Assembly (NCBI RefSeq): GCF_002117005.1
Contig: NZ_CP021023.1
Location: 310,001 to 374,000, forward strand
Direction: 5' to 3'
DNA: 64,000 nucleotides
Origin: Sedimentisphaera salicampi
GTDB lineage: Bacteria; Planctomycetota; Phycisphaerae; Sedimentisphaerales; Sedimentisphaeraceae
The notes below the pieces were generated by a model that had not been told where the DNA came from, did no database searches, and saw only the letters and a program-made list of their open reading frames with translations. Positions within the stretch are counted from its first letter, which is position 1. Every line of letters begins with the position of its first letter. Positions 1,381 through 8,942 of the stretch are shown one piece after another. The position numbers and the translations under genes are program-made.

Positions 1381-4300
1381 ATGAATAATATTGTTGATAT
1401 GTTCCTCGAACAGGCCGAGGCAACGCCAGATGCTTCAGCTTTACTGCAAGGTAGGCGAACTCTGAGCTATCTTGAGCTTGATAATGCTTCTGAGAATATT
1501 GCCAAAGCAATAGAAAAAAGGGGTCTTACCGGCGAAGTTGTTGGGATTTATTCATCCAGAAGTATTGAATTTATCGCATCAGCCCTTGGCATTATGAAGG
1601 CTGGATGCGTTTATGTGTCTCTTGATTCTGAACTCCCGCTGGCACGGCTGCAAAAAATAATCAGCGATGCAGATATTAAGCTTCTTCTTTCTCAGCCTGA
1701 TATTCCTGCACTTCAGATTTCCGAAGGTGCTGAAATTGTTTATGTTGAAATAGATGATATAAAAACATCCTCTCCTTTAAGAAATGAGCGAAAAGTATCG
1801 GACGACAGACTTGCCTATGTGATATTCACCAGCGGCTCGACAGGCGAGCCGAAAGGCACTAAGATTACTCATAAATGCCTTGCAAATTTTGTTAACTGGA
1901 TGGTAGTATGTTATAATTTCAAGTCGGGAACTAAAACCAGCTGGATTTCCAGGCCAGCTTTTGATGCCTCTCTGTTTGAAATATGGCCGTTTATCGCTTC
2001 CGGCGGTTTGATATCAATACCTCCTGATGAGCTTCTTTATGAGCCGCCCAAATTATTAGAATGGATAAAAGAAAATAATTTGGACACCTGTTTTATGCCA
2101 ACGCCTTTAGCTGAGAGCTGCTTAGACTTGAAATGGCCTGAAGAATGCCGTTTGAAGTATCTTTTCAGCGGCGGGGACGCCCTTCGCAAGGCACCTAAGC
2201 CCGATGCTCCATTCAAAATGTTTGATCACTACGGTCCAAGCGAATGTACTGTAGTTTCAACGTATGCAGAGATCACTCCTGAGCAAAGCAAGAATAAATT
2301 TCCAAATATTGGCTTTCCTATTTCGGGAGCTAAGGTTTATATCCTTAATGAGAGCCTTAATCCTGTGGAAGATGGTCAGGTGGGTGAGATCTTTATCGCA
2401 GGAGCAGGTGTTGGGGATGGTTATCTGAAAGACCCTGAGCTTACCAAGGCTAAATTTCTCCCTGATAAGTTTTCGAAAACCCGAGATGCGAAAATGTATA
2501 AAACGGGCGATCTCGGGGCAAGGCTCAAAGACGGCAGCATTGAATTTCACGGCAGAACAGACCGGATGGTTAAGATTAGAGGTTTTAGAATTGAGCTTGG
2601 TGAAATTGAGTCTTTAATATTAAAACAGTCATATATATCGCAAGCAGCGGTTGTTCTTAAGCAGGGGCAGGCGGCAAAGAGGATTGTTGCCTTTGCTGAA
2701 ACTCTGGATAACACATCAGATTGTTTGGAAAAGCTCAAGAAGGTTATCTCAGAAAACTTACCTTCTTATATGATGCCATCAAAAATTATATTTTTGGATA
2801 GTCTGCCTAAAACATTAAACGGCAAAATAGACCGCTCTGCCTTAGCTTCAGGAGAATATTTCAATCAGTCTGATAATAATGAAAATGCAGATCCAAAAGA
2901 ACTTTCTGATAAAGAGAAAGCGATTTTTGAAATTTGGGAAGAAGTATTGGGCGATGATAACTTTTCCGCAGACACAAATTTTTTTGATGCCGGCGGGCAT
3001 TCGCTCAAAGCTTTCAGGGCGGTTTCGAGGATTAATGAAAGATTCGGCTCCAAAATAACCGTTAGGCATATGTTTGATTACCCTACGATTCGCTCTCTCG
3101 CAGAGATAGTTAAAGGATCTGAGCAGTTTTCTGGCTCGCGTATTGAACATAAAGGGCTTAATAAGGCCCCCGCAACCCCATGGCAAGTCCATATGTGGCT
3201 CTTAGACTCTTTCAGTTCGGAGATTAATGTTTGCAATATTATCTGCAGCTTTGAGATTTCTGGCAAGTTAGATGTTGAGCTTCTTGAGTTGTCTGTTAAA
3301 AAGCTTGTTGAATTTCAGCACTGTTTGAGGCTTAAGTTTCTTATTTCAGACTCTTATCTCATAAAAGAAAAAGAGGATTACTCAGTTGATTATGTCTTTC
3401 ATGATCTTTCGGATATCTCAGCCGAAGAGGCCGAGGATTTATCGGAAGAGATTATTTGCGGGTTTAGAGATTGCAAGTTTGATTTAAAGGAAGGGAATGT
3501 TTGCAGATTTGCTCTCCTTAAATATGACTCTCAAACCTACACTTTGCTCGCAAGTTTCCACCATGCTGTCTTTGATGGTTTCTCCCTTGCAGTTTTCGTT
3601 AAACAGTTAAAGGGAATTTATGAAACTCTCTTAGTAGGCGGCGATGCAGAAAATTTAAGACCTGAGATTTCATATTTTGACTACTCTCTGTGGCTTGAGA
3701 AATGGCTGGGGTCTCAGGACGCACAGGAGCAGAAAAAATTCTGGCTAGACAAATTAGATGGAATAAAAGGTCTCTTGATGCTTGATTGCACCCTTCCCAG
3801 GCCAGAAGCATATACATTTGAAGGCAGAAGGCATTATTTTAATTTTGGAAAAGAAAGAAGCAGAAAGATTGAGGATTTCTGCTCAAAAAATTCGATTACT
3901 GAATATATGCTTCTTTTAACTGCATACTCGCTTCTGCTTAGAGGACATACTGATACAAATGAAATAATTGTAGGCTCGCCAATAGCCAACCGTCCCGACT
4001 TGCAAACAGAGCAGCTGGTTGGGCTCTTCATAAATGGTATAGTTCAAAGATTAAATATTTTGCCTGAAAACAGTATTATTTCATTGCTTGATACTGTAAA
4101 AAAAGATACCTTGCAGGCCTTTGCAAACCAGAATTATCCTTTAGAAAATCACGTGCATGATTTGAATTTAGTGAAGTATCCTTCTGCTCATCCTCTTTTT
4201 CAGCATCTTTTCAGTTTCCAAAATGCCCACATCCCTGAAGCAGAATTGGGAAGCAGTAAAATGCGCGTTGACGATATTGGCAATAACACAGCAAAGGTTG

Positions 4301-7089
4301 ACTTAGCCTTGGTTCTGGAATTACGTAATGGAAATATTGAGGGATGGTTTGAATATAACACAAATATTTTTACAAGTTCAGTAGTCGATGAACTCTCGGA
4401 CGAACTTTTCGAAATTTCAGATAAAATAATCTCTTCACCAGACTCTAAAATTTCTGATTTGATCTCTTTAGAGCCCTTCAATGAAAGTAAGATGTCAGAA
4501 TTAGAAAATGGACCTATTGATCTGCCAGAAAGTTTTGTTAGATTTTCAGGGTTAAGCCCGGATAAGCCGGCAGTCTGTGCTGATTCAAATTTTCTCACTT
4601 ACTCAGAGCTCGATAAAATAACAGATTTGCTCGCTAGTAAGCTGATAAATGCCGGTGTTAAGGCAGACAGCAGGGTTGCGGTTTTTTATGACAGCAGCCT
4701 CGAATTTATTGCCGCTGCGCTGGCGGTGCTCAAAGCAGGAGGGGGATATGTTCCTGTAGATCCCGATTATCCTGATGAGAGAATTGATTATATTATTCAG
4801 AATGCTCAGGTTTCTTGCGCTTTTGCTCCAGCAGGCACAGTGAATAAAGCCTTTCTTGAAGGTATCACCTGTTTTCCTGTTGATTTAGATCAGCTGAAAA
4901 ATACTGAAAGGAAGGAGCGGATTTGTGTTGATGTTTCGGAGGACAGCCTTGCTTATGTTATATATACTTCAGGCTCCACCGGAAATCCGAAGGGAGTTGA
5001 GGTTGAGAGGAGGAATCTCAAAAATCTTATTGAGTGGCAGTTGAATTATTATCAGATCAATGCTCGCGACAGGGCAAGCAATCTGGCAAGAAGCAGCTTC
5101 GACACCTCTGTATCTGAGATATGGCCTTATCTGATGGCTGGAGCGAGCGTTTATATACCTCAAGAGAGAATCGTACTTAACCCTAAGAAAATGATTGAAT
5201 GGCTTTGCGCTAGTCGGATAACAATATGCGATATGACTACCCAGCTCGCTGAACTTGCCGTTTTCGAAAATTGGCCTTCAGAATGCAGTCTTAGGGTACT
5301 TAAAACGGGTGGTGAGAGACTAAAGAAACGCCCGCCTGCGGGACTCAGTTTTGATTTGTATAACGAATACGGTCCTACAGAATGTACCGTAATAGCAACA
5401 TCCGGGAAGGTTTCTCCGGCTTGTGCTGGCGGGGAATTCCCTGATATAGGTGTTGCAATTTCAGGAAATAAAGCGCACATTTTAGGGGCAGATCTCAAGC
5501 CTGTTGCCAAAGGGAGCGAGGGTGAGCTTTGCATCAGCGGCAAGGGGGTAGCACGCGGGTATATTGGGCTTGATGAAGAGATGGAAGAAAGATTTATTCA
5601 AAGCCCGTTTGACCCGGCAGCGAGAATGTATCGCACGGGCGATTTGGTAAGAAGAAAAGAAGACGGAAATCTTGAATACATAGGCCGAAAAGACTCTCAG
5701 ATTCAGATACGCGGTTTCCGTGTTGAGCCCGGCGAGATTGAAAAAGCGGTTACAGAATATGGAGGTGTAAAGGAGGCGGCGGTAATATCATCAGATGAAC
5801 AGGATTCGGAAATAAAACTGCTTTGCTTTGTGGCTGCTGATGATATAAATAATTTTTCTGAAGAAAAACTGCTGTCTTATCTTAAAGAGAAGCTCCCGGA
5901 TTATATGCAGCCCGCTCAAATTTTCACTGTTGAAAAAATTCCGTTAAACCACAACGGCAAGACAGACCGTGATGCACTTCTTGAAATAGCTAAAGAGGAT
6001 GTGCCCCAGCCAAACCGGACGGATTCAAAAGTTGTTATGCCTCGCAATCCTATGGAAGAGGTTCTGTGGGATATCTGGGAGCAGCTGCTGGGGAGGAGCG
6101 ATTTTGGCGTTTATGAGAATTTCTTCGACTTGGGCGGACATTCATTGATGCTTATAAAAATGGATTCTTTGCTGTCTGAGCGGGGGCTCTATGTCGGAAT
6201 AGAAAAGATACTTCAGTATCCTGAGATTTCCAGGCTTTCCGGATGTCTGGACTTCAGGGTTGCGGGAGAAGCATGCTGCAGCGGGGAGAAATGTCTTATT
6301 GAACTTAATAAGGGCAGCAGGGGGCGTCTGCCTGTTTATTTTATCCATTCTCTAAGCGGAGATGTGCTCGGCTATGCAAATTTGGTTCATCATCTCGGCA
6401 AAGACCAGCCTTGTTATGGCTTTCAGTCTGCCGGCCTTTCTGATTTGGATAAAGCCCATAAAACACTGCCTGAAATGGCGGAGCATTATGTAAAGCTTAT
6501 GCTTGATTTTCAACCCGAAGGGCCTTTTCTGCTCGCAGGCTGGTGTTTTGGCGGTTTTATTGCCTACGAGATGGCTCAGATGCTCAAAGGTATGGGAAGG
6601 CAGGTGGGCATGCTTTTGATGGTAGATGCCCCGTCAATGCCTCCAGCTGATATTAATCTGTCATACTATTTTGATATAGCTTGTAATCTGGCATCGCTCG
6701 GGCCGTCTGGTATGTTTAAATTCATAATTTCATATCTGAAGAAACATAAACAGTTTGAAAGTGTTGAGGAGATTATAGGAGAGCGTTTCAGCATGCAGGA
6801 TAATGAAATTAAGAATAAATATGTTTCAAACAGAGAAGGTGTTTACAAAATAAATCTCAATGCAGCCAGAAGCCATAAAATCCATAAATACAATGGCGAA
6901 ATCATACTTTGCACTGCCGCTAAAAGAGAGCATTGGCTTCTCAGGGGCGATACTCTCGGATGGAAAAATTTTGTCAACAATGTGGAGCTTAAAGTTATCC
7001 CAGGTGATCACGGTTTTATTATCAGGAAATCGAAAGTCCTGCCGAAGTTCATAAGAGAAAAAATTGATCAGGTGATCAATGCAAACTGA
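1381..7089 (+). CDS. Dimodular nonribosomal peptide synthetase, A-T-C-A-T-TE
   Basis: The 1902-residue synthetase should activate two amino acids, join them and release a dipeptide or dipeptide-derived product. Adenylation domain 1 (about 1-490) has YVIFTSGSTGEPKG, FDASLFEIWP, YGPSEC, YKTGDL and a terminal NGKID. Carrier 1 has the phosphopantetheine Ser541 in GGHSL. The condensation domain (about 595-1020) has its active site HHAVFDG at 727-733. Adenylation domain 2 (about 1050-1530) has YVIYTSGSTGNPKG, YGPTEC and YRTGDL. Carrier 2 uses Ser1588. The thioesterase (about 1650-1902) reads GWCFGG, so Cys1722 stands where Ser is usual, with Asp1749 and His1877 completing the triad. There is no N-terminal condensation domain, as expected for an initiation module, and no epimerase or methyltransferase. 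An AAAGG ribosome site precedes the ATG. The end overlaps the next gene, a phosphopantetheinyl transferase, by 11 bp. Confidence 0.97.
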   Translation: MNNIVDMFLEQAEATPDASALLQGRRTLSYLELDNASENIAKAIEKRGLTGEVVGIYSSRSIEFIASALGIMKAGCVYVSLDSELPLARLQKIISDADIKLLLSQPDIPALQISEGAEIVYVEIDDIKTSSPLRNERKVSDDRLAYVIFTSGSTGEPKGTKITHKCLANFVNWMVVCYNFKSGTKTSWISRPAFDASLFEIWPFIASGGLISIPPDELLYEPPKLLEWIKENNLDTCFMPTPLAESCLDLKWPEECRLKYLFSGGDALRKAPKPDAPFKMFDHYGPSECTVVSTYAEITPEQSKNKFPNIGFPISGAKVYILNESLNPVEDGQVGEIFIAGAGVGDGYLKDPELTKAKFLPDKFSKTRDAKMYKTGDLGARLKDGSIEFHGRTDRMVKIRGFRIELGEIESLILKQSYISQAAVVLKQGQAAKRIVAFAETLDNTSDCLEKLKKVISENLPSYMMPSKIIFLDSLPKTLNGKIDRSALASGEYFNQSDNNENADPKELSDKEKAIFEIWEEVLGDDNFSADTNFFDAGGHSLKAFRAVSRINERFGSKITVRHMFDYPTIRSLAEIVKGSEQFSGSRIEHKGLNKAPATPWQVHMWLLDSFSSEINVCNIICSFEISGKLDVELLELSVKKLVEFQHCLRLKFLISDSYLIKEKEDYSVDYVFHDLSDISAEEAEDLSEEIICGFRDCKFDLKEGNVCRFALLKYDSQTYTLLASFHHAVFDGFSLAVFVKQLKGIYETLLVGGDAENLRPEISYFDYSLWLEKWLGSQDAQEQKKFWLDKLDGIKGLLMLDCTLPRPEAYTFEGRRHYFNFGKERSRKIEDFCSKNSITEYMLLLTAYSLLLRGHTDTNEIIVGSPIANRPDLQTEQLVGLFINGIVQRLNILPENSIISLLDTVKKDTLQAFANQNYPLENHVHDLNLVKYPSAHPLFQHLFSFQNAHIPEAELGSSKMRVDDIGNNTAKVDLALVLELRNGNIEGWFEYNTNIFTSSVVDELSDELFEISDKIISSPDSKISDLISLEPFNESKMSELENGPIDLPESFVRFSGLSPDKPAVCADSNFLTYSELDKITDLLASKLINAGVKADSRVAVFYDSSLEFIAAALAVLKAGGGYVPVDPDYPDERIDYIIQNAQVSCAFAPAGTVNKAFLEGITCFPVDLDQLKNTERKERICVDVSEDSLAYVIYTSGSTGNPKGVEVERRNLKNLIEWQLNYYQINARDRASNLARSSFDTSVSEIWPYLMAGASVYIPQERIVLNPKKMIEWLCASRITICDMTTQLAELAVFENWPSECSLRVLKTGGERLKKRPPAGLSFDLYNEYGPTECTVIATSGKVSPACAGGEFPDIGVAISGNKAHILGADLKPVAKGSEGELCISGKGVARGYIGLDEEMEERFIQSPFDPAARMYRTGDLVRRKEDGNLEYIGRKDSQIQIRGFRVEPGEIEKAVTEYGGVKEAAVISSDEQDSEIKLLCFVAADDINNFSEEKLLSYLKEKLPDYMQPAQIFTVEKIPLNHNGKTDRDALLEIAKEDVPQPNRTDSKVVMPRNPMEEVLWDIWEQLLGRSDFGVYENFFDLGGHSLMLIKMDSLLSERGLYVGIEKILQYPEISRLSGCLDFRVAGEACCSGEKCLIELNKGSRGRLPVYFIHSLSGDVLGYANLVHHLGKDQPCYGFQSAGLSDLDKAHKTLPEMAEHYVKLMLDFQPEGPFLLAGWCFGGFIAYEMAQMLKGMGRQVGMLLMVDAPSMPPADINLSYYFDIACNLASLGPSGMFKFIISYLKKHKQFESVEEIIGERFSMQDNEIKNKYVSNREGVYKINLNAARSHKIHKYNGEIILCTAAKREHWLLRGDTLGWKNFVNNVELKVIPGDHGFIIRKSKVLPKFIREKIDQVINAN

Positions 7090-7762
7090 AAGACTAAATG
7101 CTCTTAGCAGGGGATGGAGAGAAATACTGCCGTCGGATGTTCGTTTTGAGATTGCCCAAGCATCTGATTACACCAGCAAGCTTTCTGTTTTAGAGAATGA
7201 GGCTATCAGAAATGCCCGAAAGCAGAGGGCAGAGGAATTTTCTACCGGCAGGCATTTACTAAAAAAAATATTATCCAAGATGAATGTGTCTTTCGGAGAT
7301 CTAACGGTAACCCCCAATGGAAGCGTTAAAACCGGCAGCAGTGTAACCTGCTCAATATCCCATTCTGGAGGGTTTGTGTTTGCGGCTGCCGCTCCGGCAA
7401 GCAGCTTCCAAAGCATAGGAGCGGATATGGAGGTGTTGGAAGATATAAACCCTGAGGACATTGAAGGCTATATCCCGCAGACTGAATTCCGCCAGATTAT
7501 CTCAGATTTATCCCTGCCAAGGGCGGCAGTTTCATTTTCTCTCAGGGAATCTATAGCCAAATGTTTCGGCAATTTTGAAAGGAGGTTTATAGATTTTGCC
7601 GAAGTCCTGATTGATTACAAAAATAACGGGGCAGTTGAAATTCTTCCGATCTCCGATTATATGCAAAAAAAATTTTTACGTGATTCTCACCGTTCTTTTT
7701 ATTATGATTATATTGTAAATGAGGATTTCATTTTAACTTTCTTCTGCATAAACTTTCATTGA
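7079..7762 (+). CDS. 4'-phosphopantetheinyl transferase, EntD-like
   Basis: This 227-residue enzyme should transfer phosphopantetheine from coenzyme A to the carrier-domain serines of the NRPS upstream. Family motifs are visible in order: R-x-EEFSTGRHLLKKIL near residue 45, the substrate-binding SISHSGG, the metal-binding IGADME (usual form G-D/A-D-x-E), and FSLRESIAKCF, equivalent to the catalytic W/F-S-x-K-E-S-x-x-K segment, here with Arg for the first Lys. The GR-H-L and SHSG forms favour the EntD branch over Sfp. The ATG lies inside the last codons of the NRPS, so the two are almost certainly translated from one message. Confidence 0.9.
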   Translation: MQTERLNALSRGWREILPSDVRFEIAQASDYTSKLSVLENEAIRNARKQRAEEFSTGRHLLKKILSKMNVSFGDLTVTPNGSVKTGSSVTCSISHSGGFVFAAAAPASSFQSIGADMEVLEDINPEDIEGYIPQTEFRQIISDLSLPRAAVSFSLRESIAKCFGNFERRFIDFAEVLIDYKNNGAVEILPISDYMQKKFLRDSHRSFYYDYIVNEDFILTFFCINFH

Positions 7763-7781: not shown

Positions 7782-8552
7782 ATGGTACTTGGCAAGATAA
7801 TAAGGAAGAGAAGGAAAGAGCTCCAGCTTACTCTTGATGATGTAAGCGAGAAAATCGGCTATTCTAAGCCGTACATCTCCACCGTTGAAACCGGAAAAGT
7901 TCGCAATCCCCCCGGGCAGGATTTTCTTACAAAGCTGGAAGATCTGCTTGGTTTTGACAGGGGCGAGCTGCTTTATCTTGCCGAAATGAAGAAGATGCCC
8001 ATCCTGCTCAGGGATCAGATTGAAGGCTCATTTGTGGAAAACGAAAGACTCAGGCGGATTCTCTCAGAAATGCTTCAGGAGGATAATACCGGACAGGTTC
8101 GCCGGTTTCTCGAGAAACATCACTTAGACATAAAGGATTTTCGCAAAAACAGCATTTCCGGTGTGATTCCCGTTATCAATAAGGTAAGCGCAGGATATCC
8201 GGCTGATTTTGGAGACCTGTCTTACCCTGCCGGCTTTGCTGACGAATACATTAACTGCCCGGGACTTAACGATCCGAATGCATTTGCTGTGAGGGTTGTA
8301 GGGGATTCTATGAAACCAGATTACTGCGAGGGGGATATCGTTGTGTTTTCGCCTTCAAGGGCGGTGAACAACGGAGATGACTGCTTCGTAAGATTCAAAG
8401 ACCCGTTTGAGGCTACCTTTAAGAGGGTTTATTATGAAAATGATGGAAGTATCAGGCTGCAGCCGAGGAATACCGATTTCCCGCCGTCTAAAGCCTCTAC
8501 TTACCGGCTGAACGGGGTCTATAAAGCTGTACTGAAATACCAATATTTATAA
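7782..8552 (+). CDS. XRE-type transcriptional regulator with S24 (LexA-like) peptidase domain
   Basis: Residues about 4-60 form a helix-turn-helix of the XRE type (LTLDDVSEKIGYSKPYISTVETG). Residues about 125-256 form a peptidase S24 domain with a likely cleavage site Ala137-Gly138 (SAGYPAD), nucleophile Ser176 in GDSMKPDYCEGD and general-base Lys214 in TFKRVYY. Such CI/LexA-like repressors are inactivated by self-cleavage, classically triggered by RecA filaments after DNA damage. The gene starts 19 bp after the phosphopantetheinyl transferase and could regulate the NRPS or the cell's damage response. No operator was identified. It is longer than typical LexA, and its N-terminus is XRE rather than the LexA winged helix. 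Confidence 0.9.
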   Translation: MVLGKIIRKRRKELQLTLDDVSEKIGYSKPYISTVETGKVRNPPGQDFLTKLEDLLGFDRGELLYLAEMKKMPILLRDQIEGSFVENERLRRILSEMLQEDNTGQVRRFLEKHHLDIKDFRKNSISGVIPVINKVSAGYPADFGDLSYPAGFADEYINCPGLNDPNAFAVRVVGDSMKPDYCEGDIVVFSPSRAVNNGDDCFVRFKDPFEATFKRVYYENDGSIRLQPRNTDFPPSKASTYRLNGVYKAVLKYQYL

Positions 8553-8564
8553 AGGGGAACATTT

Positions 8565-8942
8565 ATGGCTATTACAAAACTTTACAACAAGACAGGGGAT
8601 GAGAAAGCAGTTGAGATCCAGAATAATCTGGAAAAGAATTTTGGCTTCCTTCCAGAAACTTTTCAGGCTATGGGCAGAAACGGCAATTTCCTTGAAGGAG
8701 TGCTGAAGGTTATGGAAACCGCCGGTGCAGGGCTGGACGGAAAAACCAAAGAACTGATAGCGATTGCCGTAAGTGCAGCTAATGGCTGCAGCTACTGCAT
8801 TGATGCCCACAGAGCTCTTGCCAAGCAGCAGGGGATCAGCGATGAGGAAATTACTGCGGCTATTGAGATGGCGTCTATGATGAGCCTCTTCAATACATAC
8901 AACAAGTCTATTGGCCTGAATCATGACATTAAGGCAGACTGA
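8565..8942 (+). CDS. Carboxymuconolactone decarboxylase/AhpD-like protein
   Basis: The 125-residue protein has the AhpD core: Glu63 (KTKELIAIAVSAANGC), the redox pair Cys75 and Cys78 (CSYC) and His82. In AhpD the CxxC pair and the Glu/His relay reduce peroxides or a partner thiol protein, so an alkylhydroperoxidase-type or disulfide-exchange role is likely. A strong ribosome site (AAGGGGAA) precedes the ATG 12 bp after the S24 regulator, so it is probably the last gene of that operon. A terminator follows directly. Confidence 0.88.
   Translation: MAITKLYNKTGDEKAVEIQNNLEKNFGFLPETFQAMGRNGNFLEGVLKVMETAGAGLDGKTKELIAIAVSAANGCSYCIDAHRALAKQQGISDEEITAAIEMASMMSLFNTYNKSIGLNHDIKAD

Follow-up and report, generated by a model that had tools for sequence, protein, structure and literature searches.

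The terminal thioesterase (TE) of a bimodular nonribosomal peptide synthetase (NRPS) in Sedimentisphaera salicampi carries a cysteine where the active-site serine is usually found, which raises the question of whether its product is released by an altered chemistry. Such a change had been put forward as possible in the initial annotation, and we still regard it as possible, by a route other than the one suggested there. The gene lies in the 64,000-nucleotide stretch that was analysed as a whole (the window; contig NZ_CP021023.1, positions 310,001 to 374,000), and the features of the locus and of its relatives are collected in Table 1.

Table 1. Coordinates of the NRPS, its parts, its neighbour and its relatives (window positions unless a locus is named).
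Feature	Position	Strand	Details and basis
Bimodular NRPS, 1902 aa	1381-7089	+	A1-T1-C-A2-T2-TE; ORF, Pfam
A1 adenylation domain	1399-2880, bounds approximate	+	Pfam, ORF translation
T1 carrier domain	2920-3110	+	FDAGGHSL; Pfam, ORF translation
Module junction	3015-3200	+	through GGHSLKAF like sister module 1; from about codon 605 like sister second C domain
C domain	3163-4491	+	HHAVFDG intact; Pfam
A2 adenylation domain	4540-6040, bounds approximate	+	Pfam, ORF translation
T2 carrier domain	6055-6250, bounds approximate	+	FDLGGHSL; Pfam, ORF translation
TE domain	6292-7086 (start about 6290)	+	Pfam, AB3403 homology, AF2, Foldseek
Nucleophile elbow	6538-6555	+	GWCFGG; sequence
Cys1722	6544-6546	+	codon TGT; GWCFGG elbow
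Asp1749	6625-6627	+	triad acid, position I; alignment, after AF2 model strand 120-126
His1877	7009-7011	+	triad base; alignment, after AF2 model strand 243-251
4'-Phosphopantetheinyl transferase (PPTase)	7079-7762	+	overlaps NRPS stop
Sister-species orthologue (G001), 2946 aa	L019 4319-13159	-	three modules
A-T-TE paralogue, same genome, 868 aa	L021 5554-8160	+	one module; GWCFGG

The Pfam search assigned two AMP-binding, two PP-binding, one Condensation and one Thioesterase domain to the NRPS, and a starter condensation domain was absent from this order. GGHSL was retained in both carriers and HHxxxDG in the C domain, and judged by its sequence the protein appears to be functional and maintained by selection. 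The adjoining PPTase is probably what activates T1 and T2, and the two genes stand in the same order in the sister species. Genes for a VanZ-like protein, an S24/HTH regulator and a carboxymuconolactone decarboxylase-like protein flank the pair (968-1369 and 7782-8942) in an order identical in the sister species. Throughout the genome, Pfam searches returned a single condensation domain, that of the window NRPS, and two TE domains, one on this NRPS and the other on the A-T-TE paralogue. Bimodular NRPSs of the AusA type (aureusimine) have the order A-T-C-A-T without a starter C domain, and the window NRPS resembles them in both respects; however, it reached only 1022 bits with the AusA model NF047350, far under the cut-off of 2500, and it ends in a Cys TE whereas AusA ends in a reductase, so that an assignment as AusA was rejected. 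The adenylation pocket codes were read by hand from alignments to LgrA and are tentative. That of A1 (DAFFFGHVVK) we tentatively take to be an aliphatic, Leu/Ile/Val-like code, while that of A2 (DTSDKGEVIK) is not known to match any substrate with confidence and is presumably unlike those for Thr or Ser; naming the A2 substrate from code tables was dropped as unreliable.

We then defined the TE itself. Pfam Thioesterase PF00975 matched residues 1652-1751 (E 1e-18), and homology to the TE of AB3403 extended from about codon 1638 almost to the C-terminus, which places the start of the domain near 6290, about 190 bases before the 6481 originally given. The GWCFGG motif with Cys1722, Asp1749 and His1877 was found by alignment exactly where the initial annotation had put it. 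In an AlphaFold2 (AF2) model built from a 45-sequence alignment (mean pLDDT 86, with an unreliable lid at about 169-185), Cys1722 (domain residue 100) occupies the usual elbow, preceded by the nucleophile strand 94-99 and followed by the helix 101-115, and no serine was found to take its place. Asp1749 (domain residue 127), which aligned with the Asp of AB3403, directly follows model strand 120-126, and His1877 (domain residue 255) comes after strand 243-251. No Asp was present at position II: the loop that follows model strand 215-224 consists of KREHW here and of EREHW in the sister. The modelled triad is a canonical Cys-Asp-His with the Asp after strand beta-6 (position I), behind a carrier and with a GxCxG alpha/beta-hydrolase elbow. 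A sequencing error at the Cys codon was ruled out by TGT in the sister and TGC in the paralogue at the equivalent site.

Comparison with known enzymes placed this TE next to AB3403 of Acinetobacter baumannii (ABBFA_003403 / A1S_0115, PDB 4ZXH/4ZXI), which ranked first both by sequence (E 5e-24) and by Foldseek (4zxh) and which shares the GWCFGG motif and the position-I Asp; the two nevertheless have only about 30% TE identity and stand on separate branches of the tree. AB3403 is a C-A-T-TE protein that has a glycine A domain and is supplied by an acyl carrier protein (PMC5376624). The SulM study describes its TE as the one further Cys TE of known structure, and its Asp is at position I (PMC11298585). 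BulbE-TE of the bulbiferamide pathway, compared through its published numbering, has the same Cys-Asp-His triad with the Asp after beta-6 and the same Cys-Asp spacing of 27, while the 15-atom indolyl-amide macrocycle that it closes on a ureidopeptide is its own. Biochemical characterisation of BulbE-TE showed that a position-I Cys TE can favour amide formation, hydrolysis being all that its C-to-S mutant carries out (PMC11536411).

The initial annotation had turned instead to obafluorin and a strained beta-lactone. The TEs of ObiF (obafluorin) and SulM (sulfazecin) are indeed NRPS terminal TEs with a Cys nucleophile in common with ours, and a strained ring closed on the final residue could accommodate chains of differing length. 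However, these two solved beta-lactone/lactam TEs have their catalytic Asp at position II, after beta-7 (PMC11298585, PMC6668435), and make four-membered-ring products; an ObiF double mutant with the Asp moved to position I was reduced in activity, much of it being lost (PMC6668435). The obafluorin comparison, drawn from the Cys alone, thus fails on the defining structural feature, the position of the Asp. The Gln-Cys-Asn motif of SulM was also missing from the window TE, and neither ObiF nor SulM appeared among its best 50 fold matches in Foldseek, where AB3403 came first. In ObiF and SulM the residue loaded by the last module carries a beta-nucleophile (beta-hydroxy acid or sulfamated Dap); the hand-read A2 code points to no confident substrate and appears unlike those for Thr or Ser. 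A search of the genome for an MbtH-like protein (PF03621), a partner in the case of ObiF only, gave no match, and a domain search of the neighbouring genes found none with an obvious tailoring role. Alignment with Cys-type TEs bore out the class of the enzyme, with AB3403 as best match, and not the ObiF/SulM layout. On the model, the position-I Asp strongly lowers the expectation of a beta-lactone or beta-lactam, which we now consider very improbable, and leaves room for other changed chemistry.

The sister species and the paralogue were also compared. The sister orthologue shares the gene neighbourhood, the GWCFGG elbow and the TGT codon. Its TE is 88% identical to that of the window with a dN/dS of about 0.07 (0.066), while the A and C domains are 73-80% identical; the TE is the best conserved and most constrained domain of the NRPS between the two species. 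The A-T-TE paralogue, which is 47% identical to window A2-T2-TE, lacks a C domain and sits downstream of ExbB, ExbD, TonB and TPR genes. Its copy in the sister species (L020 4047-6673) is split into two frames by a break inside the TE, either a frameshift or a sequencing error. Closely similar TEs close lines of two modules here and of three in the sister, and the 47%-identical one closes a single A-T unit, as if the TE were indifferent to chain length. The last modules of the two-module and three-module NRPSs have the same hand-read code, DTSDKGEVIK. These relations bear on a diketopiperazine formed head to tail, in which the dipeptide would attack the acyl-S-Cys with its own free N-terminal amine. 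The absence of a starter C domain would leave the amine of the first residue free, and thioesters favour aminolysis (PMC11536411); yet the 88%-identical sister TE would receive a tripeptide and the paralogue TE a single amino acid, from which the same ring is impossible, and such a product appears unlikely. The occurrence of these TEs on lines of one, two and three modules fits better with chemistry at the last residue, an external acceptor or hydrolysis than with head-to-tail cyclisation.

The two NRPSs also differ by a whole module. Window codons 1 to about 545 matched sister module 1 (for instance 20/20 residues at 508-527), the likeness began to switch at about codon 605, and from about codon 628 the window scored 13-18/20 against the second C domain of the sister and 4-8/20 against the first. 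From this comparison of two genomes, the window NRPS has one C-A-T module fewer than its sister, and the junction, as located by sequence, falls either within the carrier domain, in its second half, or in the carrier/C-domain linker.

Cys TEs had been called uncommon, which does not hold in this phylum. Among 70 TE-family loci retrieved from 392 phylum genomes, the nucleophile was Ser in 49, Cys in 20 and Gly in one, in a census whose query itself has Cys and may slightly favour Cys matches, the weakest few matches being outside the count. Two of the 20 Cys loci belong to this genus. A contig scan that used GWCFGG as its pattern returned only Cys and was excluded as a measure of frequency. The domain context was read for ten Cys TEs, nine of which lie directly behind a carrier domain. 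A separate locus (L060 538-2247, + strand) holds a Cys-type TE that follows a sulfotransferase domain, with no carrier domain found between them, and the Gly-type TE (GWGFGG; L057 1462-2283, - strand), from another genome of the phylum, is possibly inactive. No relatives of the window TE were found in viral contigs, and the literature on Sedimentisphaera NRPSs and on pyrrolizidine-type Cys TEs yielded nothing of use. In a tree of 86 TEs, the three TEs of the genus formed one supported clade separate from that of AB3403; supported branches forced at least two Cys/Ser changes and parsimony gave seven, which indicates that Cys was gained or lost several times, and the tree did not support one common origin for the Cys TEs as a whole.

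Such interchanges agree with a plain hydrolytic TE in which the exchange of Ser for Cys is near-neutral and a linear dipeptide (a tripeptide in the sister) is released. The canonical position-I triad is that of ordinary Ser TEs, the TE remains 88% identical although chain length differs between the species, and the S105C mutant of RufT, which still hydrolyses, indicates that the effect of a Cys can be no more than increased hydrolysis (PMC11934086). Against hydrolysis, the Cys is retained by the sister as well as by the two TEs of this genome, and in BulbE, ObiF and SulM the Cys is required for the special ring closure, Ser shifting the enzymes to hydrolysis (PMC11536411, PMC6668435, PMC11298585). 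We hold plain hydrolysis to be a serious candidate, though one that falls somewhat short of even.

The reading that we prefer, and consider quite probable, is an active Cys-type terminal TE of the AB3403/BulbE layout on a bimodular NRPS, for which the complete domains, the intact triad, the conservation of the Cys and the adjacent PPTase all argue. A1 would load an aliphatic amino acid onto T1 and A2 a second residue onto T2, and the C domain would join the two. Cys1722, activated by His1877 and Asp1749, would then accept the dipeptide from T2 and hold it in a peptidyl-S-Cys thioester, and this predicted covalent route is well supported by homology. The thioester might be resolved by an amine, at a chance approaching even, to give a side-chain lactam, the product of an external amine or a diketopiperazine, or by water, at an appreciable chance below even, to give the free dipeptide. 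What speaks against this explanation is that the chemistry of AB3403 is unsettled and that the A-T-TE paralogue may differ in its chemistry. A more far-reaching idea, which we think improbable, is a Cys TE family private to the genus in which substrates of one, two and three residues all undergo one C-terminal ring closure or transfer.

As judged from alignment and fold model, the window TE is a position-I Cys-type terminal TE, a kind already known, and does not have the beta-lactone layout. If the genus did possess a private family, its small release products would form a class not yet described. In the sister pair a whole module has been gained or lost in nature, and the mapped junction makes this case useful for NRPS engineering. 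Few Cys-type terminal TEs have been studied so far, and because closely related TEs end lines of one, two and three modules here, it can be asked directly whether the Cys is there for a difficult release reaction or is no more than tolerated.
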